Below, piece after piece: positions 36,735-62,333 of a stretch of DNA of 64,000 bases. The first letter of the stretch is position 1, and every line of letters starts with the position of its first letter. Source of the DNA: Flectonema sp. DT1601 (Eukaryota > Euglenozoa > Diplonemea > Diplonemida > Diplonemidae); contig OZ025834.1 of assembly GCA_964019425.1 (NCBI GenBank), positions 254,501-318,500 of the forward strand, read 5' to 3'. A program made the translations under genes and the position numbers. The notes beneath the pieces are model-generated. The model was given only the letters and a program-made list of their open reading frames with translations, made no database searches and had not been told where the DNA came from.

Positions 36735-42089
<5,355 letters not shown>

Positions 42090-45810: not shown

Positions 45811-47034
45811 CTTTACATCAGATTAGTAGATTGCCGCAGTGGCGGGGTTTGGTGTTTCTGTTTGATAAATAACAATAAGATAAACTACCACAACTTAAAT
45901 AACAAATAACATTTTATTAGAACACTAATAAAGATGTGTAGAACTTCGATGGGAAAAGTCCCGCCGCCACATGCGATTTCATTTTTTTTAGGACCTTCTG
46001 ATAGTGAAGAAATACGACACAAAAGATGTAATTTACATTCATCGAGATTTTGTTGCTTTTATTATTTTATTACATACTTGCGGGTTACCAATGAGGTACC
46101 AGTACAGCTTTGCAGTATGGTTAAACAATAAATAGAAAGAAAGAAAGAAAGAAAGCAACATGCCAAGGTGGAGGAGGCGAACGTCTTTCTTTGTCTCTCT
46201 TTTCTTTTTGCTTTTTTTATATTCCGAACACCATATTTATAATAACAAATAAGACAAGGAAAAAAAAAAATGAAGGGAAAAATTGGGTAAATTAACTACG
46301 AAAACCGAAGAAGAAAAACAGTTTCTTTTTTTTTTTTAAGTTGGTTGGTATTAACACCAATAATATAGAGATTTTTCGCTATTGCGGCGCCTGATAACGT
46401 CATTATCGCTGTTCACTAGAATTCAGTACACTCATCCGTAATAGATTGAAAAGCCAAAGATTCCATGTCTGACTACATCAAGAAGGACGAGCTGGTTAGA
46501 GAAGAGCAGCACTTGATAGCTTTCTGCGATTGTTGAATCAGCGGAAGATGTTTATTTAATTAAGTTAGTTAGTATTAATAGTTATCAGTCAAAAGAAGGG
46601 GAGACTCTGGGAGTAGGGGGGGGAAGGTGAAAAAAAATGAAAAATAAATCTTCTTTCTTTCATATACATCTTTCTTTATAATACGACCATGTGTGCCGAA
46701 TGCCCACACTCCACGAAAGAAAATAGAAACCCCCGGAACAGTACCGAGGATCGTTCACCCCTAGTTGTCCAAAGCATTATAATTGTACTGGGCTTACCGA
46801 AAAAAAAACCGGAAAAGCTTTAGATAAGTACCACAAAAAAAATTGGGCAGCACATAGCCATATCACTCAGCAAGAAATGAAAATCAAAAAGATTAGGTAA
46901 GATGACAGTCAGTTTAAGGTCATAACTGCGTCGGACCTTTAATCTTCGATAAGAATACTAAAGAACCAAATATTAACACCATTGAGGGTTTAAAAAGATT
47001 TGTGTAAAAGTTGAAAAAAATAAAAAAAATGAAT
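45811..47034. other. Intergenic region with left copy of a duplicated flank
   Basis: No gene. 46330-46690 is repeated almost exactly at 52889-53248. 46691-47034 is unique and replaced by the LINE-like element in the other copy. A short GAAA array lies at 46134-46154 and a G run near 46617. Confidence 0.6.
46330..46690. repeat. Duplicated flank, copy 1
   Basis: About 360 bp starting near AAGTTGGTTGGTATTAACACC and ending at ACCATGTGTG. Its near-identical partner is 52889-53248. Each partner precedes one copy of the fucosyltransferase/NADAR/carrier block in the same order, so both belong to a larger segmental duplication. Confidence 0.85.
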
Positions 47035-47058
47035 CTCAAATGGTAATACAAAGGTAAG

Positions 47059-48231
47059 TTAGTTTCCCCAGCATCCATTAACAATGGTGTCGGGTTTTCT
47101 GAGTAGGTGGACTTTGGAATTGTTATTCAACTGTCGATACGCATCTAAAAAATGAGTAAAAGAAGAATCCGAGTCCATAGCAAAATGATGAGGGGAATTA
47201 AGAAGTACTTCCCAATCAACAGCAGCGCGAACCTCAAATGGCCATTCGGTGGCTTCATTTGGGAAAGCCATCTGTTTTCCCGTTAGTGTAAATCCAGCAT
47301 CACGAAATCCCTGAAGCAACGGATCATTTGGGGATATATCTGAGCATATATAAAGAGTTCTCGCATCTGGTACAGCAGAGGCGAGTACATTAGCCAACCA
47401 CTCAATCTGCTCATGAGATACTTTACACATCCATGTTCTGAGATGTATTGATATCCAGTTAGTTCCAAACAAGTCCTTTTCAATTATCTTTGCTTTATTT
47501 CTTATAAAGGAATTTGCCCGAAGTGAACGAAGAGCTTTGTCACAAACATCACCAAATTCTTTGCAATCGTCGTAGAACCTGCTGTAGACCACAGTACACA
47601 AGGATACAGGACATGTATCGCATTGTTTCATTGAAAAGTTTTGACCCTTTTTATTGAAATTAAACAACACGTTGACATCAGATACGGACATTCCCTTAAT
47701 CTCTCTGTATGTGTCGGCTGATTTTCTAAGTTCTCGATCGTTTCTTCCCTTCGATAGGATATCTCGGAACCCGTTTAGTTGTGTTGTTGGTATTACTTTT
47801 TCTCGAACGCAGATATTCATCGCTTCAACAGATCGTATAAAATGTGTTTTATCCCAAAGAGAATCCATACCATATGATTTCTTAGGCTTTAGATAACTGT
47901 AAGGAGGAACCCAGTACTTTCGTGTTGCCCTTCCAGCATAGTCATGTGGCCTAGCAGTCGGTTCCGAAATGTCAACTCCCCACAATGAAGCAAATAGAAC
48001 TGTATTTATAATGTGTTCTCTTTGGTTGTTGTAACCTCCTTTTGCATGGCCAGCTACAAATACAGATTTATCATCAGTTTCTCCACAGATTCTCTTATGT
48101 ATTGAAGGGTTCTTATGCTTGACATGCATCGTCACGCGGATTTGAACTTCTTCCTCGACGTGATTTTGAATCATGAAGAATATAAATATAGCAACACCGA
48201 GGATTGCAGTAACTTTAACAGCGTTCTTCAT
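47059..48231 (-). CDS. O-fucosyltransferase-like type II membrane protein, copy 1
   Basis: Putative Golgi or ER glycosyltransferase of 390 aa. A single membrane anchor (about residues 7-22, VTAILGVAIFIFFMIQN) follows a short basic N-terminus. GGYNNQREHIINTVLFASLW matches the N-terminal GG-x-x-NQR motif of O-fucosyltransferases. ISIHLRTW matches the catalytic-region HLR motif that binds the GDP-sugar. AAVDWEVLLNSPHHFAMDSD fits the C-terminal conserved helix and strand. Paired cysteines are plentiful. The specific acceptor is unknown; POFUT and plant-type subfamilies cannot be separated here. It differs from copy 2 at three residues (S/T, D/G and M/I). Confidence 0.78.
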   Translation of the reverse strand: MKNAVKVTAILGVAIFIFFMIQNHVEEEVQIRVTMHVKHKNPSIHKRICGETDDKSVFVAGHAKGGYNNQREHIINTVLFASLWGVDISEPTARPHDYAGRATRKYWVPPYSYLKPKKSYGMDSLWDKTHFIRSVEAMNICVREKVIPTTQLNGFRDILSKGRNDRELRKSADTYREIKGMSVSDVNVLFNFNKKGQNFSMKQCDTCPVSLCTVVYSRFYDDCKEFGDVCDKALRSLRANSFIRNKAKIIEKDLFGTNWISIHLRTWMCKVSHEQIEWLANVLASAVPDARTLYICSDISPNDPLLQGFRDAGFTLTGKQMAFPNEATEWPFEVRAAVDWEVLLNSPHHFAMDSDSSFTHFLDAYRQLNNNSKVHLLRKPDTIVNGCWGN

Positions 48232-48387
48232 ATTATTGAGAGAGAGGGAGGGAGGGAGAGAGAGAGGGAGGGAGAGAAAGAGTAACTCTGATTATGAAAA
48301 GAAATAACAATAAAACTCAACATGAATGCAACAAAAAAAGACGCAAATGACTTCCTTGAGAAAAAGAGTCAAAAAAAATACATATTA

Positions 48388-49146
48388 CTACCTACCCTCA
48401 ACATATTGCCTACAAAAAGGAGCAACATTGGTAACGATATTGAACCAATTACTTTCTCTAAGACCTGCTGGCCATGATGTTACAGGTCTATTTCTGTGAG
48501 TGTTAAGCTGGTCTCTAATTGTCATAAGACACCGACCAAAATTATTTTCACCCGCAGCATTTCCGTCAGACCAAAAGTGAGATACAGAAATCGGAGAAGA
48601 ATGACAGTAGAGAAGAAAGCAACCATCAGTTGACAGCAGAACTGAAGCAGCAGCAACAACACTAAAATAATACGACTGCAGAACAAACATCATAGCAGAG
48701 TATTTATTAAAATCTGATTCGTATGGTGTAGAATGGTATTTTTGTTTTACAGAAATGACTTCTTCAGGTGTGTACGCATCACTAAAAGCTTCCCTAATAT
48801 CGTTTCTATTCCAACGTTTCATCGACTGGTATGCCGCGTTAACAGAACTGAATGATTCTTGTTCACCATCTTTTTCAATTAAAACTTTGTTCGGTGTCAA
48901 TGGCCAGTGTGGAGACAACACTCCACTACCAAACACATCTTCCCAAACATCATCACATCCCTGCCATGAGAAGGGTATTATTCTTATTGATAGACAGTTG
49001 TCAGACCATAATACACTTTTTATTAGTTTCCTTTCTAAATTTATTCCTAATTCAAAATGTTTTTTATACAAATCACTTCTTTTTGATAGTAATTCTTGTT
49101 CTTCATTTGATCTGCTGGCGACACGTTGCAAACTATCGACTGTCAT
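48388..49146 (-). CDS. NADAR-domain protein, copy 1
   Basis: 252 aa. The C-terminal two-thirds follow the NADAR (YbiA/RibX-like) pattern: FSSVNAAYQSMKRWN for the Ser-Val-Glu helix, AMMFVLQSYYFS for the KF-x-Q helix, and HFWSDGNAAGENNFGRCLM followed by TIRDQL for the conserved W-G-x-G...N-x-L-G-x-x-L-M-x-x-R end. Family members are N-glycosidases acting on riboflavin intermediates, or on ADP-ribosylated guanine in DNA. Several usual residues vary (for example V-N for V-E), so activity is uncertain. The protein is identical in copy 2. A GTAGGT just before the stop could be a donor giving a different C-terminus. Confidence 0.7.
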   Translation of the reverse strand: MTVDSLQRVASRSNEEQELLSKRSDLYKKHFELGINLERKLIKSVLWSDNCLSIRIIPFSWQGCDDVWEDVFGSGVLSPHWPLTPNKVLIEKDGEQESFSSVNAAYQSMKRWNRNDIREAFSDAYTPEEVISVKQKYHSTPYESDFNKYSAMMFVLQSYYFSVVAAASVLLSTDGCFLLYCHSSPISVSHFWSDGNAAGENNFGRCLMTIRDQLNTHRNRPVTSWPAGLRESNWFNIVTNVAPFCRQYVEGR

Positions 49147-49458
49147 ATTGTGTCAGGTCATTATTTGAGATAAGGGAATCCCTGTAGGAATGAGATAAAC
49201 AGTATTCAAAATAACATTCAAATTTTTTTTTGTTGCAACTCACCAGAGAAAGGATAGTCAACACTACCAATCACCAGCTTTCACAATGATAGAAATATGT
49301 AACGTTTTTTTTTAACCAGCAGCAGCCGGGGGGAAAAAAAAAAATACAATGTTAATTTTTTATTATTATTTGTTTTGCAAAGAATCTTTAAAAATCAGCA
49401 GCTCTTTAAAACTCGTATCAGTCCTCATCGGATGTCAATACCATCTAGAATAATGATA

Positions 49459-49722
49459 TTACAGACTTTCAGTCACGCTAAGAGATCTCATTTTATTACC
49501 ACCATATCCAGTATGAAATTCTTCTTCAGCTATCCATCCAGAGAGGCCTCCATCAATCATTTGCACTTTGCAAAAACAGTATCAGCTCCATACACATTAG
49601 AGGAAATGCCGTGAGACACGACACCAGCAGCAGCAGCTGCAACACCTCCGCACAGTAAATCGACGACAGCCTTAACAGGAAGTGGTGCTGAAGCAACATC
49701 ATCAGCACAGAGTTGAAGAACA
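49459..49722 (-). pseudogene. 3' remnant of the mitochondrial-carrier-like gene
   Basis: Corresponds to 61281-61380 plus 61563 to about 61700 of the complete gene, lacking about 180 bp that hold the intron and part of the last exon, and lacking all sequence upstream of LQLCADDVAS. It is cut by the start of the repeat array. It cannot make a working carrier. Confidence 0.85.
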
Positions 49723-50073: not shown

Positions 50074-50475
50074 TTATCTTCGCATACCATCAAAGGTCCT
50101 ATTCGCAGGTGTCATTGTAACATCCATATCAGTCTGAGCTTTTAATGGTATCATATGGAAACTACACTCCGTAGTTTGGTACATCTTGTCAAAATGATCG
50201 AAAGGGAGTCTTAAGTCCTTTGTGCTTTTAAGAATGTCTCGGATGATCATGGACTCAAATGAGACTAGCGCAACAATGAAGTGAGTCATGCAAGCCATGT
50301 TAAGTACTTGTAACGAGAACCAACCATCTGGTTGTTCGGTTCTACTTTAAGAGATTCTTCATAAAATCGTTGTTGGTAGTTTTGCAGAAAACTGAAGTTA
50401 ATTCTATCGATATATAAATGATCTGCAATGAAGTTGAGCGATGCCCATCCGCATTCTCCACCGAGTTGAAGAACA
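50074..50475 (-). pseudogene. Coding-like remnant, two exons, family unknown
   Basis: An open stretch encoding LQLGGECGWASLNFIADHLY and FYEESLKVEPNNQMVGSRY meets an 83-nt intron-like segment (GTACTT to CTTAAAAG). The same frame then continues with TKDLRLPFDHFDKMYQTTEC and ends at 50074. Composition is coding-like and no start is present. Its 5' end (GAGTTGAAGAACAG) is repeated within each satellite unit, so the satellite probably captured the end of this gene. An older gene broken by the repeats is the simplest reading. Confidence 0.35.
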
Positions 50476-50479
50476 GTTA

Positions 50480-52888
50480 GTATTAATGATTATCAGTCAA
50501 AAGAAAGGGAGAGGGTGGGAAAATTCAATCGAATGCAAAAGTTCGTAGGACAACAAACAAATAATAATGGTTGGTTTCGGGCTAAAATTAAAAAACCTTT
50601 CTTCGGATCATTCCCCTTACCCAGCCCTCTTCAGTGAAGAAAGGGGGACACTGCGGTAGAAGGCCTGTCCTACTCATCGCGTTTGCCCTTCTCAGGAAAC
50701 TACGCAATTAAGTAAACAAAGAGAAAAAAAAAGAGAAAAAAAAGGAAAAAAAAAGAAGAAGAAAAGGATCATTCCCCTTACCCAGCCCTCTTCAGTGAAG
50801 AAAGGGGGACACTGCGGTGGAAGGCCTGTCCTACTCATCGCGTTTGCCCTTCTCAGGAAACTACGCAATTAAGTAAACAAAGAAAAAAAAAAAAGAAGAA
50901 AAAAAACTAGTTCTAATCTGAAACACTAGATAGAATATGAGTTTATTATAAAAAAGTGCACTAAATTAAAATGTAAAAAAAAGAAAAATTATAAAAACAC
51001 ATTGTTCTGCTGTTCCATAATACACTGTGGAATACGTAGTTTCAGGCTCCTCATCTATCTATCTATCTATCTATTTATCTATCTAGTGTTTCAGGTTCGA
51101 AACACTAGATAGATAGATTGATAGATAGAAAAGGAAGTCCAATACATTGCGTACTGTGCATCGCTGATACAGCAAACTAGAGAGCATCGGATTAACTCCC
51201 TAGAGCTACGAGGCAACAGAGTTAGTTAGTATCATTAATTTTAGAACAGAAAAGTGAGAATAAGGCAACAGAGTTAGTATTAATAATTATCAGTCAATCA
51301 AAAAAAAGGCAAAATTTCGTAGGACAACAAACAAATTGGTTTCGGGCTAAGATTAAAAACAATCTTTCTTCGGATCATTCCCCTTACCCACGAAGAAAGG
51401 GGGACACTGCGCTGACAATAAGGCAACAGAGTTAGTTAGTATTAATAATTATCAGTCAAAAGAAGGGGAGTGGGCGGGAAAATTCAATCGAATGGAGCGA
51501 TGCACATCCGCATTCTCCACCGAGTTGAAGAACAGTTAGTATTTTATCAGTCAAAAGAAGGGGAGGAGGGCGGGAAAATTCAATCGAATGCAAAAGTTCG
51601 TAGGACAACAAACAAATAATAATGGTTGGTTTCGGGCTAAAATTAAAAAATCTTTCTTCGGATCATTCCCCTTACCCAGCCCTCTTCAGTGAAGAAAGGG
51701 GGACACTGCGGTAGAAGGCCTGTCCTACTCATCGCGTTTGCCCTTCTCAGGAAACTACGCAATTAAGTAAACAAAGAGAAAAAAAAAGAGAAAAAAAAGG
51801 AAAAAAAAAAGAAGAAGAAAAGGATCATTCCCCTTACCCAGCCCTCTTCAGTGAAGAAAGGGGGACACTGCGGTGGAAGGCCTGTCCTACTCATCGCGTT
51901 TGCCCTTCTCAGGAAACTACGCAATTAAGTAAACAAAGAAAAAAAAAAAAGAAGAAAAAAAACTAGTTCTAATCTGAAACACTAGATAGAATATGAGTTT
52001 ATTATAAAAAAGTGCACTAAATTAAAATGTAAAAAAAAGAAAAATTATAAAAACACATTGTTCTGCTGTTCCATAATACACTGTGGAATACGTAGTTTCA
52101 GGCTCCTCATCTATCTATCTATCTATCTATTTATCTATCTAGTGTTTCAGGTTCGAAACACTAGATAGATAGATTGATAGATAGAAAAGGAAGTCCAATA
52201 CATTGCGTACTGTGCATCGCTGATACAGCAAACTAGAGAGCATCGGATTAACTCCCTAGAGCTACGAGGCAACAGAGTTAGTTAGTATCATTAATTTTAG
52301 AACAGAAAAGTGAGAATAAGGCAACAGAGTTAGTATTAATAATTATCAGTCAATCAAAAAAAAGGCAAAATTTCGTAGGACAACAAACAAATTGGTTTCG
52401 GGCTAAGATTAAAAACAATCTTTCTTCGGACCATTCCCCTTACCCACGAACAAAGGGGGACACTGCGCTGACAATTAGGCAACAGAGTTAGTTAGTATTA
52501 ATAATTATCAGTCAAAAGAAGGGGAGTGGGCGGGAAAATTCAATCGAATGGAGCGATGCACATCCGCATTCTCCACCGAGTTGAAGAACAGTTAGTATTT
52601 TATCAGTCAAAAGAAGGGGAGGAGGGCGGGAAAATTCAATCGAATGCAAAAGTTCGTAGGACAACAAACAAATAATAATGGTTGGTTTCGGGCTAAAATT
52701 AAAAAATCTTTCTTCGGATCATTCCCCTTACCCAGCCCTCTTCAGTGAAGAAAGGGGGACACTGCGGTAGAAGGCCTGTCCTACTCATCGCGTTTGCCCT
52801 TCTCAGGAAACTACGCAATTAAGTAAACAAAGAAAAAAAAAAAGAAAAAAAAGAAGAAAAAAAACTAGTTCTAATCTGAAACACATTT
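50480..52888. repeat. Satellite array, about 1,056-bp unit, 2.3 copies
   Basis: Sub-block GGATCATTCCCCTTACCCAG through ACGCAATTAAGTAAACAAAG occurs five times (about 50605, 50766, 51660, 51822, 52716); the macro-period is about 1,056 bp. Each full unit has a perfect 16-bp hairpin, ATCTATCTAGTGTTTC with loop AGGTTC (51077-51114 and 52133-52170), inside a GATA/TATC tract. Other modules contain TTAGTATTAATAATTATCAG. No coding content beyond a scrap of the adjacent gene remnant. Confidence 0.9.
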
Positions 52889-53248: not shown

Positions 53249-53484
53249 TGTGTTTTGTTTTTCTTTCATTTTTTTAGAAGAAGATCAGGACATCCAAGCA
53301 CTGCTGGATAGTTGCTGAATGCAGTAATTAGCCTTCCTATACTGTATGCACCTGGGAAAGAGAAGTATACTTAATTGAATGAACATGCAGTTAACAAGTC
53401 TGAGATCACAAAGAAGAATCTACACTGTGGTGCAGATTACTTCTGCGTAGGGGTTGTACAAGCCGAGCACTGAAGCCACGCCCA

Positions 53485-56400
53485 ATGGACGATAAATCGG
53501 GACGAGCGAGGCGGTGGTACTTTGACCAAAAAACACAAGTAGCGAAGGAGGCGGTGGTAGAAAGGAGGGAAGAGCCAGTTCTGCATGTGGAAAAGCCGAG
53601 GGCAGAGCAACCACCATCCCCGTCGGAGCCGAAACCTTTGGAGCCAGCATCAAACGGAGACATTGCGAAACTGACGCAAGAGACGAAGGAAGAGCCACCA
53701 GTACAAACTAACCGCTCCAAAGGGGACGGTGGGCAGCAGGCGCTGCCGCCGCCCCAGCTGCTCAAGTCTGAGGCGCGGAGTCCAGAGCGGGCAGAAGGCT
53801 CAACAACGGAACCAATGCGAATGGACGGGAGCGACCAGACTAAAGACGTCACCGAACCGTCGGCGGGGATAGGATTGCACGCAGGAGGGAATTACTCGGA
53901 CACATCCCTGTCGCTATCGGAACCGCCGCCTGTGAAACCCCACGGAAATGTCGAGACTTTGGAGCCAGCATCAAACGGAGACATTGCGAAGCTGACGCAG
54001 GAGACGAAGGAAGCGCCACCAGTACAAACTAACCGCTCCGAAGGGGACGGTGGGCAACAGGCGCCGCCGCCGCCCCAGCTGCTCAAGTCTGAGGCGCGGA
54101 GTCCAGAGCGGGCAGAAGGCTCAACAACGGAACCAATGCGAATGGACGGGAGCGACCAGACTAAAGACGTCACCGAACCGTCGGCGGGGATAGGATCGCA
54201 CGCAGGAGGGAATTACTCGGACACATCCCTGTCGCTATCGGAACCGCCGCCTGTGAAACCCCACGAAAATGTCGAGCGGATGCCACAGGGACTGAGTGCG
54301 GTGCCATTGACGCTGTCAAAGCAACCGGAGGACCAGGATAGACGACAGACACCGCCGGCTCCCCAGCAGTCCGTATTAAAACTACAAGAAACAGGACAGG
54401 ATTTGCTACAGGTCCCGGTGAAAGTAGCCGAGCGGTCGAAAGAACCGGAGGCGCCGCCTGCGGTAAAAGAAGAGTCGAACCTGCCGGCGAGGAACCTTTC
54501 ACCACCGGTGTCTATTTCAACACCAAGCCAGGACGTGCGGACGCCTACGCAGCCGTTGCGTGATCCCGAGCAGGGAGAACCGCATGCACTTGTGAAACCG
54601 ACAGAGGGCGCACAGACGCAAGCGAATGGATTGGTTTCAGAAGGAGCAGCCCCACAGAAGAGCAGAAGGGAGCCGACAGAACCTAAGACGTCTAGGGAGC
54701 AAGGTCTAAAACTGGGCTTTTACGCAACAGGACCGACCACGTGGGAGACAGCACCGTGGGAAGGAGAGCAAGACCCAGAGGAGGCCCAACAAAAGAGGGA
54801 GCCACTGGTACCACAGGAAGCAAACGCTCGGGAGGAAGACCGCGAGGGATATGACGAACCGACAGCGCGTGGAACAGACGGAGAAGCTGATGTACAGATG
54901 GAGAACTATGAGAGCCAGGAAGGGGCGAACTCCCAGGAACTAATGGAGGAAGTTACAGGGGAGATTGCCGAAACGAGCGAGCCGCTAGCGTATGGAATGG
55001 ATGAAGGGGGTGATATACTCATGGAGGACTGTGAACCGGAATCAAACCTTTTCTGCACGCGGGTAGCGCCAGCGGCCCCGTGTCTTGGTAGCAGAGGCCC
55101 GGACGTCACCGAACCGCAGAGCCAAGGGGGTGGGACGAATATCCAGACGCGGACCACCTGGATGGAGGGCCTGACGAACCTCGGAGACTCGTGTTACCTG
55201 AACGCCACCTTGCAGGCACTACTGAAGGGGTCGCATGTGGATTTCCAGCGGGCACGGAACACCCCTCACGTATGCGGGACGAGGTGCACAGTGTGCGCAC
55301 TAGCACTGGTGCAGGGAGGTGGGTCGCAAGGAGAGATAACGAGGATCACAAGAGAATGGATGGGAAGAGGACAACAGGACGCCCACGGAGCCCTACTACA
55401 CATAGTGTCGGACCTGCAGGAAAGAGCAAGACCAGGCGACCTCTTAGCAAACGCTTTCACATGCATGGTGGCAGTAGAACGCACGTGCATATGCTGTGGC
55501 GGAGGGAGCCAATCAATCGAGCTGGACTGCGGCCTGATACTGCGGGGATGGGACCTACAGTCGGCACTGGAGTCGACGACGATACCACAGGACTACGTGT
55601 GCGGACTGTGCGGTACGGGGTCTTTGCAGGAGCGCAGGATCTTGATGGAGGCGCCGGAAACGATGATCGTATGCATTGTGAACGAGAATGCCACGAAAAT
55701 GGCGCTGGGAGAACAAGTGTCGATGCGGAACAGCAAGATACAGGCCGACTATAGGGTGTCCGCTGTGGTGGTCCATCAGGGGTGTCTGGGATCGGGTCAC
55801 TACACGTCTTTCACCCTATCACCGGGCGGCTGGAGGTACCAGGACGATGAGGTGGAGCGAGCAACAAGCTGGCGAGAGGTGCTGTCGTCTGTCCCTTACG
55901 TGCTATTCCTGCGAAGACAAGCTACAAAGGAGATGTTCTGCGCAAATGAAGTTCCGATGATGCCACGACTAGCTCCACAGGTGGTCAGGGTAACGCCCCC
56001 AGAGCAGCACGGAATGGAAGGAAGGGATTATAGGCAAGTGAACAGTGAAATGCTCATACGGCCTGGAACGCAAAAGTCACGGACACAGTGTGAAGTACCA
56101 CAATCAACACGGACCCAAAACCCACCGAACCTGCTAAGGACGGTGAAGGCACTAGGTCGGTGCGAGAAGAAGAACGCCACGCGTGTCACAATACGAGCAC
56201 ACACAACGAAAGGCCAGAGGAGTCAACCGGCGACGCGAATGGAGAGCAAGTTTAAGCTCTATGCTATCTCGAAGGGAAGGGGACGCACTACCATCGTGAA
56301 TAGCTGGGCAGAGGCCGAGAAACAGACGAAGGGACTCTCTTGCGCTGTTTATCAGGGCTTCAATAATGGAGAGGAGGCGGAGGCTTTCCTGAGAAGCACT

Positions 56401-58020
56401 GACCCAGAGTATAAGACAGCAGACAAGCCAGTAAAAGGCCCACGCAGAAATCGGCGGTACGCGGTCCCGTGTGGACGGCGTCCAGGAACGTACAGCACAT
56501 GGAGTGAAGCCTCACTGCAAGTGCTACGCTGTCCAGGTGGGAAGGTGAAGAAGCTTTGCACGGACAGGAGAGCACGGGAGTACGTCGAAGAGCACAGAGC
56601 CACGAAAGGGTTAACGCAGCCAACACCACCACATCCAGCTGTGTACCTTTTCTTAGGCAAAACCGGAAGGGCGTGCCTGGTGCGGAGTGGCGGAGGACCA
56701 GTGATGAAGAAGTGGCATGAGACCACAGGAGAGGAAAAAGACCCCATGCTGGCCGCACTAGAATTGGCACTGGAATGGGTCACAGGGAAGGGCCTCCTGG
56801 AGGGACCCGTGGAAGTGCAAGCGTACGCACCCTTGGAACAGTGGACGAGAGAACGGTGGGAGAAATTCGGGGCGATAAGTAGCGTGGTAAGGGCACGAGG
56901 ACTAGTGTTGAGGCTGGCGGACCTACCTGTCGAAGTAAAGCACACAGCTTACCAGTGGGTGTGCCAAGTGATGACAGGCGAAACAGAGGTAGAACAGAAA
57001 CCGAAGCCAGCGGAACCAGTCGAGGAGCCGAAGGAAGGATCGGCAGATCCCCACCATGGACGTGAGCCCCGAATAGGATGGCGCCCAAGTGCGATCCATG
57101 AGCCTGAGGAGGGAGTGCGAGGACAGTCGGAACCGGAAGCGGCATTTAGAGATTCGAAGAAGAGGGCGAAGATCGAGCTCATAGAATGGCACTCTGAAAA
57201 GCCCATCTATGAACTGTTCTACGCAGCAACACAGAGGGAGACGAGAACGTGTGTTGTAAGTGGCGGTGAAGTGATCCACATGTGGAGATTCCCCCTCAAG
57301 GAATGCTCGCCGAACCGCGAGGGTAAGGCGTTAGGGATCGGGATGGCGCAGCTGCTAAGTTACGGAGACGCAGTGAAGGAAATAGTGGCGTACGGCTCAC
57401 TCGAGCACTCAGTAGAGTCACACCGACGATACATCGAGGTCTCGCAGAGAATGGCGCATCGACTTGGATCAACGCTGAGGCTGGAGCGCCTGCCCCCCGA
57501 AGCCAGCGAAGAGGCCTACCGATGGGTGAGAGGTGAGGAAAAAGTCGGGAGGAGATTGTTAAAGTGGAAGGAGGAGAACGGTAAGGAAGTCTCACAGGCG
57601 GTAACAAGCACACACGAGAAAAATATTGTGCCTGAAACCACCACGGAGCCTACCATGGACCATGACTCAGACAAGATGACGTCAGACTCGAGCTCGATCT
57701 GCTCCCCACCGACACAAGAAGACCGCCCCCCAGTAGGGATGTGTGGGTGCGGAAAGGAGATACCGCAAGCAGCGATCAAGAATCCGGTGAAACACCCGAC
57801 GAAGGGATGGTGTGATAGGTGTGGAGAGCGGATCGCGAAGGGAACGCGGGTAGTCATGTGCGTGAAGTGTGACTACGCTGAATGCTGCGGATTGTTGGAG
57901 AGATCGCGGCGTGGGTTTAACTGCATAAGGACAAGAACAAGAAGAAAAAAGATTATATTCAAGAAAAAGCAAGAGAATAAAGAAAAGAGGGGGAAATTGA
58001 TCAACCAAACCATGATATGA
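53485..58020 (+). CDS. Deubiquitinase/hybrid-binding ORF1 protein of LINE-like element
   Basis: Intact 1,511-aa frame. Residues about 50-262 hold two 106-aa direct repeats rich in Pro, Glu and Ser; disordered sequence follows. Residues about 555-812 are a ubiquitin-specific protease: Cys box GLTNLGDSCYLNATLQALL (Cys 570), QQDAHGALL, paired cysteines CICC and CGLC, and His box GSGHYTSF (His 772) with GGWRYQDDE. Residues about 922-973 and 990-1037 are RNase H1-type hybrid-binding (Cauli_VI) domains (KLYAISKGRGRT with GFNNGEEAEAFL, and YAVPCGRRPGTYSTW). Residues about 1050-1150 and 1240-1350 are two related RNase-H-like modules lacking the acidic active site. The end (about 1418-1475) has eight or more Cys in CxC/CxxC pairs. 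Likely roles: nucleic-acid chaperone plus removal of ubiquitin from the particle or a host factor. A free-standing host gene is the alternative. Confidence 0.8.
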   Translation: MDDKSGRARRWYFDQKTQVAKEAVVERREEPVLHVEKPRAEQPPSPSEPKPLEPASNGDIAKLTQETKEEPPVQTNRSKGDGGQQALPPPQLLKSEARSPERAEGSTTEPMRMDGSDQTKDVTEPSAGIGLHAGGNYSDTSLSLSEPPPVKPHGNVETLEPASNGDIAKLTQETKEAPPVQTNRSEGDGGQQAPPPPQLLKSEARSPERAEGSTTEPMRMDGSDQTKDVTEPSAGIGSHAGGNYSDTSLSLSEPPPVKPHENVERMPQGLSAVPLTLSKQPEDQDRRQTPPAPQQSVLKLQETGQDLLQVPVKVAERSKEPEAPPAVKEESNLPARNLSPPVSISTPSQDVRTPTQPLRDPEQGEPHALVKPTEGAQTQANGLVSEGAAPQKSRREPTEPKTSREQGLKLGFYATGPTTWETAPWEGEQDPEEAQQKREPLVPQEANAREEDREGYDEPTARGTDGEADVQMENYESQEGANSQELMEEVTGEIAETSEPLAYGMDEGGDILMEDCEPESNLFCTRVAPAAPCLGSRGPDVTEPQSQGGGTNIQTRTTWMEGLTNLGDSCYLNATLQALLKGSHVDFQRARNTPHVCGTRCTVCALALVQGGGSQGEITRITREWMGRGQQDAHGALLHIVSDLQERARPGDLLANAFTCMVAVERTCICCGGGSQSIELDCGLILRGWDLQSALESTTIPQDYVCGLCGTGSLQERRILMEAPETMIVCIVNENATKMALGEQVSMRNSKIQADYRVSAVVVHQGCLGSGHYTSFTLSPGGWRYQDDEVERATSWREVLSSVPYVLFLRRQATKEMFCANEVPMMPRLAPQVVRVTPPEQHGMEGRDYRQVNSEMLIRPGTQKSRTQCEVPQSTRTQNPPNLLRTVKALGRCEKKNATRVTIRAHTTKGQRSQPATRMESKFKLYAISKGRGRTTIVNSWAEAEKQTKGLSCAVYQGFNNGEEAEAFLRSTDPEYKTADKPVKGPRRNRRYAVPCGRRPGTYSTWSEASLQVLRCPGGKVKKLCTDRRAREYVEEHRATKGLTQPTPPHPAVYLFLGKTGRACLVRSGGGPVMKKWHETTGEEKDPMLAALELALEWVTGKGLLEGPVEVQAYAPLEQWTRERWEKFGAISSVVRARGLVLRLADLPVEVKHTAYQWVCQVMTGETEVEQKPKPAEPVEEPKEGSADPHHGREPRIGWRPSAIHEPEEGVRGQSEPEAAFRDSKKRAKIELIEWHSEKPIYELFYAATQRETRTCVVSGGEVIHMWRFPLKECSPNREGKALGIGMAQLLSYGDAVKEIVAYGSLEHSVESHRRYIEVSQRMAHRLGSTLRLERLPPEASEEAYRWVRGEEKVGRRLLKWKEENGKEVSQAVTSTHEKNIVPETTTEPTMDHDSDKMTSDSSSICSPPTQEDRPPVGMCGCGKEIPQAAIKNPVKHPTKGWCDRCGERIAKGTRVVMCVKCDYAECCGLLERSRRGFNCIRTRTRRKKIIFKKKQENKEKRGKLINQTMI

Positions 58021-58214
58021 TCTCCACTGCGATTTATATGCATGCATGGAATACAAGAGGGAAGGGAAATGGGACAGGAATATTTAAAAAAGTACATTCC
58101 CTTTTTTTTGTTATTTTTTTTTTTTTTTTTTTTGATCTTCTTTCCTCTCTTCGTATGGTTGATTTAGATTATACGAAAGAAAGGAAAAGAACAGAGGAGG
58201 GAAAACTTGGTTAA
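58017..58214 (+). pseudogene. ORF2 start remnant, endonuclease-like N-terminus
   Basis: ATG at 58017 overlaps the ORF1 stop TGA (58018-58020) in ATGATATGATC, an arrangement seen in LINEs that use stop-restart translation. The product begins STAIYMHAWNTRGKGNGTG, whose WNTRGKG resembles the first strand of an APE-type endonuclease (WNxxG). After about 28 codons the sequence turns into a T run and low complexity, so the rest of ORF2, including reverse transcriptase, is absent. The match is short and needs related copies for proof. Confidence 0.4.
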
Positions 58215-58747
58215 TAAATCGTATGCTTCCTTCCTTCCTTCCCCTAAATAATAACATAAAAACAATAACAAGCATAATAAGAAGGACTCGTAAAGAGAAG
58301 AGGAAAAGGAAATCACGGGGATCGCGATCGAAAAACGATGCCATGTGAGAAGCATGAAACGGAAAGTGAATGAACGGAAAAAATTAAATGTAAAGAAGTG
58401 AACTTGTAAAAAATGTAAAGAAGCAAACATGTTAAAAGAAAAATGAAAAAAAAAAAAAAAAGAAGAGTGAAAAGGAAGACAGAGTTGTATGTAAACTGTA
58501 TGTAAATGTAAGAAGAAAGAAAAAACACGCTGGAAGTGGGAGTGCAACCATCAGCGCAAACACAACCACAAATATTGTTTTTTTTTTTTTTTCCTTTTTC
58601 TTTTCTTCGCTTCGGCGACAGATATGGTAGGACCTAGAAAACCGGCCCAAAACTTGTGTTGCAGTTTATCTTTTTAGCGCACACTCATGTAACATAAGGA
58701 TCGCTGGTTCCGAGGGTTTGCTCTCCTGCCATACTTGCCTCTCACCT

Positions 58748-58800
<53 letters not shown>

Positions 58801-58825: not shown

Positions 58826-58856
<31 letters not shown>

Positions 58857-58860
58857 TAAA
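58215..58860 (+). other. 3' region and A tails of LINE-like element
   Basis: Non-coding, GA-rich, with no conserved frame. The 45-A tract at 58753-58797, a 30-nt spacer and a further 26-A tract end the region. Sequence shared with the duplicated three-gene block resumes at TCAAATGGTAATAC (58861). Confidence 0.55.
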
Positions 58861-58883
58861 TCAAATGGTAATACAAAGGTAAG

Positions 58884-60056
58884 TTAGTTTCCCCAGCATC
58901 CATTAACAATGGTGTCGGGTTTTCTGAGTAGGTGGACTTTGGAATTGTTATTCAACTGTCGATACGCATCTAAAAAATGAGTAAAAGAAGAATCCGAGTC
59001 CATAGCAAAATGATGAGGGGAATTAAGAAGTACTTCCCAATCAACAGCAGCGCGAACCTCAAATGGCCATTCGGTGGCTTCATTTGGGAAAGCTATCTGT
59101 TTTCCCGTTAGTGTAAATCCAGCATCACGAAATCCCTGAAGCAACGGATCATTTGGGGATATACCTGAGCATATATAAAGAGTTCTCGCATCTGGTACAG
59201 CAGAGGCGAGTACATTAGCCAACCACTCAATCTGCTCATGAGTTACTTTACACATCCATGTTCTGAGATGTATTGATATCCAGTTAGTTCCAAACAAGTC
59301 CTTTTCAATTATCTTTGCTTTATTTCTTATAAAGGAATTTGCCCGAAGTGAACGAAGAGCTTTGTCACAAACATCACCAAATTCTTTGCAATCGTCGTAG
59401 AACCTGCTGTAGACCACAGTACACAAGGATACAGGACATGTATCGCATTGTTTCATTGAAAAGTTTTGACCCTTTTTATTGAAATTAAACAACACGTTGA
59501 CATCAGATACAGACATTCCCTTAATCTCTCTGTATGTGTCGGCTGATTTTCTAAGTTCTCGATCGTTTCTTCCTTTCGATAGGATATCTCGGAACCCGTT
59601 TAGTTGTGTTGTTGGTATTACCTTTTCTCGAACGCAGATATTCATCGCTTCAACAGATCGTATAAAATGTGTTTTATCCCAAAGAGAATCCATACCATAT
59701 GATTTCTTAGGTTTTAGATAACTGTAAGGAGGAACCCAGTACTTTCGTGTTGCCCTTCCAGCATAGTCATGTGGCCTAGCAGTCGGTTCCGAAATGTCAA
59801 CTCCCCACAATGAAGCAAATAGTACTGTATTTATAATGTGTTCTCTTTGGTTATTGTAACCTCCTTTTGCATGGCCAGCTACAAATACAGATTTATCATC
59901 AGTTTCTCCACAGATTCTCTTATGTATTGAAGGGTTCTTATGCTTGACATGCATCGTCACGCGGATTTGAACCTCTTCCTCGACGTGATTTTGAATCATG
60001 AAGAATATAAATATAGCAACACCGAGGATTGCAGTAACTTTAACAGCGTTCTTCAT
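58884..60056 (-). CDS. O-fucosyltransferase-like type II membrane protein, copy 2
   Basis: 390 aa, same architecture as copy 1 at 47059-48231: short N-terminus, membrane anchor, GG-x-x-NQR motif, HLR motif and C-terminal helix. Only three residues differ (T, G and I in place of S, D and M). Most of the DNA changes seen are silent, suggesting that both copies are under selection or very young. The open frame continues 38 codons upstream through a GA-rich simple repeat of different length in copy 1, so the start is set at the shared MKNAVKVTAIL. An acceptor-like TTTTCATAATCAG lies upstream of the repeat. Confidence 0.78.
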   Translation of the reverse strand: MKNAVKVTAILGVAIFIFFMIQNHVEEEVQIRVTMHVKHKNPSIHKRICGETDDKSVFVAGHAKGGYNNQREHIINTVLFASLWGVDISEPTARPHDYAGRATRKYWVPPYSYLKPKKSYGMDSLWDKTHFIRSVEAMNICVREKVIPTTQLNGFRDILSKGRNDRELRKSADTYREIKGMSVSDVNVLFNFNKKGQNFSMKQCDTCPVSLCTVVYSRFYDDCKEFGDVCDKALRSLRANSFIRNKAKIIEKDLFGTNWISIHLRTWMCKVTHEQIEWLANVLASAVPDARTLYICSGISPNDPLLQGFRDAGFTLTGKQIAFPNEATEWPFEVRAAVDWEVLLNSPHHFAMDSDSSFTHFLDAYRQLNNNSKVHLLRKPDTIVNGCWGN

Positions 60057-60211
60057 ATTATTGAGAGGGAGGGAGGGAGAGAGAGAGAGGGAGGGAGAGA
60101 AAGAGTAACTCTGATTATGAAAAGAAATAACAATAAAACTCAACATGAATGCAACAAAAAAAAGACGCAAATGACTTCCTTGAGAAAAAGAGTCAAAAAA
60201 AATACATATTA

Positions 60212-60970
60212 CTACCTACCCTCAACATATTGCCTACAAAAAGGAGCAACATTGGTAACGATATTGAACCAATTACTTTCTCTAAGACCTGCTGGCCATG
60301 ATGTTACAGGTCTATTTCTGTGAGTGTTAAGCTGGTCTCTAATTGTCATAAGACACCGACCAAAATTATTTTCACCCGCAGCATTTCCGTCAGACCAAAA
60401 GTGAGATACAGAAATCGGAGAAGAATGACAGTAGAGAAGAAAGCAACCATCAGTTGACAGCAGAACTGAAGCAGCAGCAACAACACTAAAATAATACGAC
60501 TGCAGAACAAACATCATAGCAGAGTATTTATTAAAATCTGATTCGTATGGTGTAGAATGGTATTTTTGTTTTACAGAAATGACTTCTTCAGGTGTGTACG
60601 CATCACTAAAAGCTTCCCTAATATCATTTCTATTCCAACGTTTCATCGACTGGTATGCCGCGTTAACAGAACTGAATGATTCTTGTTCACCGTCTTTTTC
60701 AATTAAAACTTTGTTCGGTGTCAATGGCCAGTGTGGAGACAACACTCCACTACCAAACACATCTTCCCAAACATCATCACATCCCTGCCATGAGAAGGGT
60801 ATTATTCTTATTGATAGACAGTTGTCAGACCATAATACACTTTTTATTAGTTTCCTTTCTAAATTTATTCCTAATTCAAAATGTTTTTTATACAAATCAC
60901 TTCTTTTTGATAGTAATTCTTGTTCTTCATTTGATCTGCTGGCGACACGTTGCAAACTATCGACTGTCAT
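60212..60970 (-). CDS. NADAR-domain protein, copy 2
   Basis: 252 aa, identical in sequence to copy 1 at 48388-49146; the few DNA differences are silent. It carries the same NADAR landmarks: SSVNAAYQSMK, FVLQSYYFS, FWSDGNAAGENNFGRCLM. It follows the same position in the block, just upstream of the fucosyltransferase-like gene (156-bp gap), and both are transcribed leftward. Confidence 0.7.
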   Translation of the reverse strand: MTVDSLQRVASRSNEEQELLSKRSDLYKKHFELGINLERKLIKSVLWSDNCLSIRIIPFSWQGCDDVWEDVFGSGVLSPHWPLTPNKVLIEKDGEQESFSSVNAAYQSMKRWNRNDIREAFSDAYTPEEVISVKQKYHSTPYESDFNKYSAMMFVLQSYYFSVVAAASVLLSTDGCFLLYCHSSPISVSHFWSDGNAAGENNFGRCLMTIRDQLNTHRNRPVTSWPAGLRESNWFNIVTNVAPFCRQYVEGR

Positions 60971-61280
60971 ATTGTGTCAGGTCATTATTTGAGATAAGGG
61001 AATCCCTGTAGGAATGAGATAAACAGTATTCAAAATAACATTCAAATTTTTTTTGTTGCAACTCACCAGAGAAAGGATAGTCAACACTACCAATCACCAG
61101 CTTTCACAATGATAGAAATATGTAACGTTTTTTTTTAACCAGCAGCAGCCGGGGGGGAAAAAAAAAATACAATGTTATTTTTTATTATTATTTGTTTTGC
61201 AAAGAATCTTTACAAATCAGCAGCTCTTTAAAACTCGTATCAGTCCTCATCGGATGTCAATATCAACTCGAATAATGATA
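60971..61280. other. Spacer between NADAR and carrier genes
   Basis: No gene. Short T and A runs. Copy 1 has the equivalent at 49147-49458, with small indels in homopolymers. Confidence 0.55.
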
Positions 61281-62333
61281 TTACAGACTTTCAGTCACGC
61301 TAAGAGATCTCATTTTATTACCACCATATCCAGTATGAAATTCTTCTTCAGCTATCCATCCAGAGAGGCCTCCATCGATCATTGTATCGCTTTGAATGAA
61401 GTGCATAATAATTCCATACATACACATTGCTACCGCAGCTACCGGAACGTCGGTTTTAAGAACTTGAGCTTGGGCTGTTGTTGGTATTGTTGGTGGTGTT
61501 TTGTTGTAAATACATAAAAAGATAATTTTAAAAAAAAAATATAAAAAAAACATACTTCTCTTTGCAAAAACAGTATCAGCTCCATACACATTAGAGGAAA
61601 TGCCGTGAGACACGACACCAGCAGCAGCAGCTGCAACACCTCCGCACAGTAAATCGACGACAGCCTTAACAGGAAGTGGTGCTGAAGCAACATCATCAGC
61701 ACAGAGTTGAAGAATAGTATTCCTAAGAGAGTGGTAGGTACCAAAAAATGCTCCCATTTTTGGAACCTCTACTCGGTATTTAAAAGTGTCGTTAAAGAAT
61801 CCGAGTGCCCCAGATTCTGTCCAAATGTGTTTGAGTTGCCCAACAGTCGAACGTTTCGCTAAATCACGAGAGTATCTCACTTTATGAAATGGATTAGTGA
61901 TTGCCCTCATCCACATTTCTGTCCAGGCACCAGTAGCTGCATAGTATGGTGTCATGAGTATAGGATGTTTATCAGGATTGGTCGCACCATAATGAGGTAT
62001 TGAATTGGAGTATATTGCCATCCTCAGTCCCCAATAAGGAGAGAATCTGTATAGTATTGTCGCACTACTCCCTCCTCCATTCTTAATCATTTGACCCAGT
62101 GGTGTTAATGCGTGTTCTGGATTTGACAAAACGACCAACCCTTTTCCCATTATTCCAGCAATGCAACCAGCCATGAATCCCTCAAGTGGTAATGCTAGAG
62201 TGTTATCGATGATGAAGCCTCCTCCACTCTTCACTTTCTTCCATGCGACTGTTACCGTTGTTGTAAATAAAGTGACGCACATATTGAATGAGTCTTGTCG
62301 GAAATATGAATTTATTATAAAATAGTATTCCAT
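61281..62333 (-). CDS. Divergent mitochondrial-carrier-like membrane protein
   Basis: Two exons: 62333-61556 and 61474-61281 (intron 81 nt, donor GTATGT, acceptor AACAACAG), giving 323 aa, the usual carrier length. Carrier-like features: Gly-rich helices (GFMAGCIAGIMGKG; LLCGGVAAAAAGVVSHGI), Arg/Lys-bearing loops, ALGFFNDTFKYRVEVPKMGA with FFGTYHSLR, resembling the end of a carrier repeat, and about six hydrophobic segments. The classic PxD/ExxK signatures are not clear, so substrate prediction is impossible. A damaged 3' piece is left at 49459-49722. An acceptor-like AAATTAAACAG lies 15 nt before the ATG. Confidence 0.6.
   Translation of the reverse strand: MEYYFIINSYFRQDSFNMCVTLFTTTVTVAWKKVKSGGGFIIDNTLALPLEGFMAGCIAGIMGKGLVVLSNPEHALTPLGQMIKNGGGSSATILYRFSPYWGLRMAIYSNSIPHYGATNPDKHPILMTPYYAATGAWTEMWMRAITNPFHKVRYSRDLAKRSTVGQLKHIWTESGALGFFNDTFKYRVEVPKMGAFFGTYHSLRNTILQLCADDVASAPLPVKAVVDLLCGGVAAAAAGVVSHGISSNVYGADTVFAKRSMFFLYFFFKIIFLCIYNKTPPTIPTTAQAQVLKTDVPVAAVAMCMYGIIMHFIQSDTMIDGGLSGWIAEEEFHTGYGGNKMRSLSVTESL

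Follow-up and report, generated by a model that had tools for sequence, protein, structure and literature searches.

The window analysed here is a stretch of 64,000 nucleotides from the diplonemid Flectonema sp. DT1601 (GCA_964019425.1, contig OZ025834.1, positions 254,501 to 318,500 of the forward strand). Positions 53485–58020 of its plus strand form a single open frame of 1,511 residues, the sole plus-strand member among the 22 ORFs of at least 200 residues, the other 21 being antisense. The third-position GC content of this frame is 0.60, compared with 0.31–0.43 in seven neighbouring genes, and further copies of it with 99% identity exist in the genome; it is not a product of chance. Homology to the other copies places the frame within an insertion that extends from 53458 (5' junction) to 58797 (end of the poly-A), so that its ATG is an internal Met located 27 nucleotides inside the insertion. 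The following features were assigned, all on the plus strand.

53458–58797, plus strand: 5'-truncated LINE copy, including a foreign piece of 376 bp (homology to other copies, poly-A)
53485–58020, plus strand: open frame of 1,511 residues, predicted C-terminal part of the element polyprotein, its last 34 residues foreign (ORF, comparison of copies)
53636–54256, plus strand: two direct repeats of ~320 bp in the linker, 98% identical, repeat family D4
55168–55908, plus strand: ubiquitin-specific protease (USP, peptidase C19), residues 562–808, with Cys570, His772, and Asp787 (Pfam UCH, residues, alignment with relatives)
56254–56388, plus strand: first hybrid-binding domain (Cauli_VI), residues 924–968 (Pfam)
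56458–56583, plus strand: second hybrid-binding domain (two Pfam stretches; place inferred from the identical copy on contig C17)
56626–57009, plus strand: module 1, RNase-H-like in the first-pass annotation, fold putative (sequence repeat)
57166–57564, plus strand: module 2, putative fold, ~25–28% identical to module 1 (sequence repeat)
57742–57888, plus strand: Cys-rich, finger-like end (ZZ-like by eye only; Pfam not significant)
57916–58291, plus strand: foreign piece of 376 bp, also found at three tandem places on contig C51 (absent from other copies)
58292–58752, plus strand: 3' untranslated region of the element
58753–58797, plus strand: poly-A tail

The LINE copy stands between the two units of a duplicated segment (47014–49561 and 58841–61383) with a NADAR-like plus O-FucT-like gene, the units agreeing at 98.9% of 2,549 aligned bases. 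Upstream of the copy, at 50426–52880, a sequence of ~1,056 bp is repeated in tandem, and a long A/T-rich trinucleotide repeat at 36916–37438 gives rise to spurious poly-Asn, poly-Ile, and poly-Tyr frames.

The first-pass annotation had read in this ORF a USP with Cys570 and His772, two RNase H1-type hybrid-binding domains, and a Cys-rich end, and all of these are borne out. Pfam UCH matches residues 562–808 with 53.4 bits (cut-off 23.9, E 3.7e-14) over positions 2–253 of the 254 positions of the model, and the catalytic triad, numbered as before and completed by Asp787, is accompanied by a QQDAH box and by two CxxC pairs. The hybrid-binding domains are recovered as two stretches of Cauli_VI, at 68.7 bits against a cut-off of 21. 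Among sequences of solved structures, the ORF matches USPs, with USP15 the best, as well as the N-terminal domain of RNase HI. An AlphaFold model of the window USP alone has a pLDDT of 33. With its catalytic residues in place, the USP domain is a putative deubiquitinase. A frame that is likely the host RNase H1, also carrying a hybrid-binding domain, is located on contig C3.

The same annotation had described two degenerate RNase-H-like modules, an assignment that we could not confirm. Taken singly, modules 1 and 2 have no match in Pfam, and profiles built from three or six modules, or from one relative, gave no convincing match in the PDB and no recognisable RNase H. The two modules are diverged repeats of each other, with 25–28% identity.

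A search of the source assembly (89.5 Mb in 92 contigs) yielded 36 matches, the window copy among them, with 31 of 428 candidates scored, and the counts that follow are therefore lower bounds. At least 10 other places match residues 1–1487 of the window ORF at 99% identity, their DNA being 99.66–99.89% identical along 4,458 bp. At least 14 places have shorter pieces from this family (66–100% identity), and at least four have a second family (41–42%). The 10 full matches sit in open frames of 1,780–5,423 residues, lengths that are overstated where a frame spans N, and the window ORF is therefore the end of something larger; in six of the 10, the match runs upstream, in one open frame, into an OTU domain and a reverse transcriptase (RT). 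Tails are found behind all 20 copies examined, half of which (10/20) do not have the 5' part of the module. Where a target-site duplication would be sought, the flanks of the copies frequently finish in runs of A that pass into the tail. In five cases out of 20 (L003, L004, L006, L012, and L013, by eye), the tail is followed at once by a further copy of the element. A retroelement origin, as originally proposed, is thus upheld by the multiple copies, the 5' truncation, the poly-A, and the RT in the same frame elsewhere; the BLAST-type check recommended with that proposal, a search for copies adjoining an RT, did find copies, in the same frame as the RT.

The copy in the window differs at four positions from the majority of the 10 copies, and its frame is open because the copy is young, not because any use of it is known. 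The foreign piece of 376 bp (57916–58291) is missing in all 20 of the other copies that cover this point, and it provides residues 1478–1511, the last 34 of the ORF, together with the stop. An intron was considered for this piece and is ruled out by its boundaries, TT...GT, and by the presence of the same 376 bp, at ~100% identity, at three tandem places on contig C51. Of the intact protein of 1,511 residues that had been claimed, the open frame stands, whereas the start, an internal Met, and the last 34 residues do not. The truncated copy does not include the RT, is antisense to the gene cluster, and, unlike most truncated copies, is not placed at an A-run. It is probably a dead by-product, a recent insertion in an ordinary locus.

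These features also bear on the reading that the ORF belongs to the host, either as one of its genes or as an element copy that the host has put to use. Its frame is indeed open from near the junction to the stop, as such a reading would have it. However, the first-pass annotation had proposed to recognise a host gene by a single copy that never adjoins an RT, and the ORF is found in multiple copies at 99.7–99.9% identity, next to an RT elsewhere. Moreover, the window copy is truncated, poly-A-tailed, and antisense to the other 21 of the 22 long ORFs, and it is too young for an open frame to mean anything. We regard a host gene as extremely improbable.

The copy on contig C28 is stop-free in one frame over 4,536 residues, as read from a start inside the frame. 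It begins with an array of 29-residue tandem repeats, followed by a finger, the OTU domain, a second finger, the RT, a CCHC plus endonuclease motif, a divergent USP, and the module seen in the window, which consists of the canonical USP, the two hybrid-binding domains, the unclassified modules, and the Cys-rich end. The repeat array and both fingers were identified by eye, with the first, C2H2-like finger scoring 0.22 with zf-Di19. The OTU domain is matched by Pfam at 4e-8 (6.8e-10 for the domain alone), and the RT by RVT_1 at 4e-13, with R2 and LINE-1 as its PDB matches. The CCHC and R2-like endonuclease motif that follow the RT were read in families A, B, and D by motif only, Pfam being silent there. 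The Pfam scan of the 4,536-residue frame gives OTU and UCH, and a Ulp1-like protease was not found in it. Weak OTU matches are present also in other frames of ~2,500–2,800 residues. The OTU domain of the element at L044:8857–9294 is closest, among solved sequences, to the OTUs of nairovirus L proteins, with a best E of ~1e-4.

This order of domains does not agree with the ORF1 protein of a LINE, which is what the window ORF had been taken for. Instead of a separate frame upstream of the RT, the ORF occupies the C-terminal end of the RT frame itself, downstream of both the RT and the endonuclease motif. Judged by its sequence, the ORF is the C-terminal end of the predicted RT polyprotein of a LINE, and neither an ORF1 nor a host gene.

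The arrangement is not limited to the family of the window copy. The identities of the 47 RT matches to that family lie in bands of 100–98, 66–60, and 42–31%, and at least five families, with 32–60% RT identity to it, share the order OTU-RT-USP-hybrid-binding domain. Domain order was counted by proximity, with each domain within 4.5 kb on the same strand and with the RT, UCH, OTU, and Cauli_VI tables combined. Counted in this way, the complete set, with OTU ahead of the RT and UCH plus Cauli_VI behind it on the same strand, is present at 28 of the 47 RT places, while UCH plus Cauli_VI follow the RT in 35 and OTU precedes it in 36; the other 19 places are cut short, diverged, devoid of a scored match, or have a domain beyond 4.5 kb (C45). 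For the elements on C29, C46, C45, C63, C25 (family B), and C71, the open-frame length is the same in all four tables (compared by eye), and the domains are therefore in one frame. Within each of the groups A–E, a grouping of our own, the spacing of the domains is constant or nearly so, and it differs between the groups, hence the minimum of five families. Family B, the second one, repeats the domain order and is 56% identical in the RT-endonuclease part and 29–44% downstream of it, with OTU scored upstream of the RT at C25 and C63 and not at C52. Two relatives (L031–L033) show UCH and a paired Cauli_VI in hmmscan. A LINE lineage whose predicted RT polyprotein includes an OTU domain, one or two USPs, and hybrid-binding domains is an unusual element.

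The exon of the spliced leader (SL) occurs exactly 702 times in the genome, compared with 0 for a reversed-letter control. Among the matches listed, many SL exons are in tandem units of 610 to 623 bp, and in one unit of the array on C20 the exon is followed by GT; it follows that the host uses a spliced leader. We take the exon to be diplonemid-like. An SL RNA gene unit of ~610 bp is found at L046 (G000:C20:1250450-1251090), where a 5S-rRNA-like stretch can be seen by eye as well. In three of the 20 copies (L006, L012, and L013), the SL exon is placed directly after 8–10 A of the tail and is followed by TTTTT(T)CCC. The exon there heads a repeat of ~520 bp, the units of which end with the acceptor-like CACAG just before TTTTT(T)CCC, which is what would be left by an RNA that was first trans-spliced and then reverse-transcribed. 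This SL lies ~5 kb before the OTU domain of a family-C element on C17 and C53, and the SL-headed repeat probably represents the 5' end of family C.

Insertion into the SL RNA genes themselves was considered as well and was rejected, as 17 of the 20 copies have no SL behind them, and in the other three the exon is followed by TTTTT, without GT, and heads the repeat. By this criterion, the element is not an SL-gene-inserting CRE element. At L045 (G000:C17:649101-650400), an SL exon with a complete protein-kinase frame (by eye) runs without poly-A into repeats of a family-A copy of the element, a join most simply explained if the template was switched from the RNA of the element to a capped message of the host. 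A template switch may also account for the 376-bp piece in the window, and the element RNA appears to be SL-capped before it is copied. Ten truncated copies were examined for their 5' flank, L012 being set aside for its internal deletion; the 10 bases at the end of the flank contain at least six A in eight of nine copies, compared with ~10% of the 10-mers of the window outside the element. The insertions on C17 and C65 occupy the same A-run of a repeated sequence, whose copies there agree at each of the 172 bp available.

In an alignment of the canonical USPs, families A, B, and D have all three catalytic residues (Cys, His, and either Asp or Asn). In the family-C piece the His and the Asp are in place, and its Cys box is absent because the piece is 5'-truncated. 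The divergent USP gives UCH_1 with an E of 0.00072 in family A, below the Pfam cut-off, and nothing in family B. A profile of the two families finds seven PDB sequences at E up to 1, of which six are USPs, the best with 0.0023. Its Cys and His align with those of the canonical domain in both families, and a Ser occupies the column of Asp787, with an Asp one column on, leaving the third catalytic residue uncertain.

The 11 copies of the module differ by 32 unique changes, 18 replacement and 14 silent, with 71% replacement expected (p 0.055, borderline). The USP, the hybrid-binding domains, and everything C-terminal of them account for 5 replacement and 11 silent changes (p 0.0012), and the two linkers for 13 and 3 (Fisher p 0.011 vs the domain region); the numbers are small, and the division into domains and linkers was chosen after the list of changes had been seen. 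This pattern suggests that the domain region is under constraint in those copies from which new ones arise.

The USP and OTU domains could also be captured host pieces that bind ubiquitin, or act as a scaffold only, without catalysis. Host joins are present in the element family, both in the SL-headed protein-kinase frame that leads into a 5'-truncated element and in the 376-bp foreign piece, and in the divergent USP much of the consensus is gone. However, the intact catalytic residues (Cys, His, Asp or Asn) of the canonical USPs in families A, B, and D, and the mostly silent changes in the domain region, make such a reading quite improbable.

We consider it probable, as far as sequence can tell, that the window ORF represents the 3' portion of a recent, 5'-truncated copy of a giant RLE-type LINE in an SL-using host, and that the element moves along the following lines. 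Host RNA processing would provide the element RNA with the spliced leader and the poly-A, and the polyprotein would copy this RNA at A-rich sites. During target-primed reverse transcription, the hybrid-binding domains may anchor the C-terminal cassette to the RNA:DNA hybrid, where ubiquitin could be taken off the RT particle, or off chromatin and repair proteins at the site, by the USP or USPs and the OTU domain. Removal of ubiquitin would keep the particle from degradation or eviction until the copy is finished. A wider reading, in which giant SL-capped LINEs carry a deubiquitinase array (OTU and one or two USPs) on the hybrid, removing ubiquitin at the very place and time of copying, and have gathered its domains by template switching onto host messages, is put forward tentatively, as a possibility.

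The proteases could instead serve the polyprotein itself, with the OTU and USP domains acting mainly as processing enzymes that release RT-endonuclease, USP, and RNA-binding products from a chain longer than 4,500 residues. Such a role would suit the great length of the single frame and the two or three protease-like domains in it, and the OTU-type PRO of turnip yellow mosaic virus both processes a polyprotein and removes ubiquitin (PMC3744425). The recurrent pairing with hybrid-binding domains is left unexplained by processing, a role that we hold to be rather unlikely. To our knowledge, no USP acts as a polyprotein-processing enzyme.

If ubiquitin removal on the hybrid is indeed their function, the retention of OTU, USP or USPs, and hybrid-binding domains would point to ubiquitin as a barrier to retrotransposition that is lifted on the hybrid. 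Proteases of ubiquitin and SUMO recur in transposons, and the reason for it is an open question that the present element makes testable. An SL-headed, LINE-linked sequence joined to a host message offers a visible route by which an element could pick up host genes.

In the open literature, as distinct from subscription papers and Repbase reports and in so far as its text was accessible, no USP was found described in a LINE. The novelty that the first-pass annotation had suggested holds within that scope, although not for the ORF1 setting in which it had been placed. Several related cases are described. Nematode NeSL families and Utopia-1_TSP have an N-terminal Ulp1-like protease fused to RT-RLE (PMC4640811). 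Among DNA transposons, OTU or Ulp1 is found in Ginger1, Ulp1 in Mutator, and OTU in some Helitrons, and a C19 peptidase on a T. vaginalis transposase, an involvement of the ubiquitin pathway in transposition having been suggested (PMC2836005). Trypanosomatid CRE elements contain RT and RLE, with the words protease, OTU, and ubiquitin absent from the main text of the source (PMC12278014). Diplonema has ~2,500 gene models of retroelement type, including SLACS RTs (PMC10161547), and Perkinsela has many SL gene fragments, some of them next to retrotransposons (PMC5601477).

Comparison with RNase H1 reveals a common N-terminal hybrid-binding domain, which scores above the cut-off, whereas here the domain occurs twice in tandem and is joined to a USP and to modules with no recognisable RNase H. 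The Ginger1, Mutator, and Helitron proteins and the T. vaginalis transposase resemble the element in that ubiquitin or SUMO proteases, in one case of family C19, are part of mobile-element proteins; unlike here, their accessible text mentions no RT, no pair of OTU and USP, and no hybrid-binding domain. NeSL and Utopia-1_TSP share with the element the fusion of a protease for ubiquitin-like modifiers to RT-RLE, although theirs is Ulp1-like and N-terminal, while here OTU and USP are present, with the USPs at the C-terminal side. By its predicted architecture, the element is an RLE-type LINE. It shares with R2, NeSL, Utopia, and CRE/SLACS/CZAR an RT matching R2 and LINE-1, the CCHC and putative endonuclease motif after the RT, the fingers before it, the poly-A, and the 5' truncation, and it differs from them in the OTU domain placed before the RT, in the USPs and hybrid-binding domains that follow the endonuclease motif, and in a frame of more than 4,500 residues.
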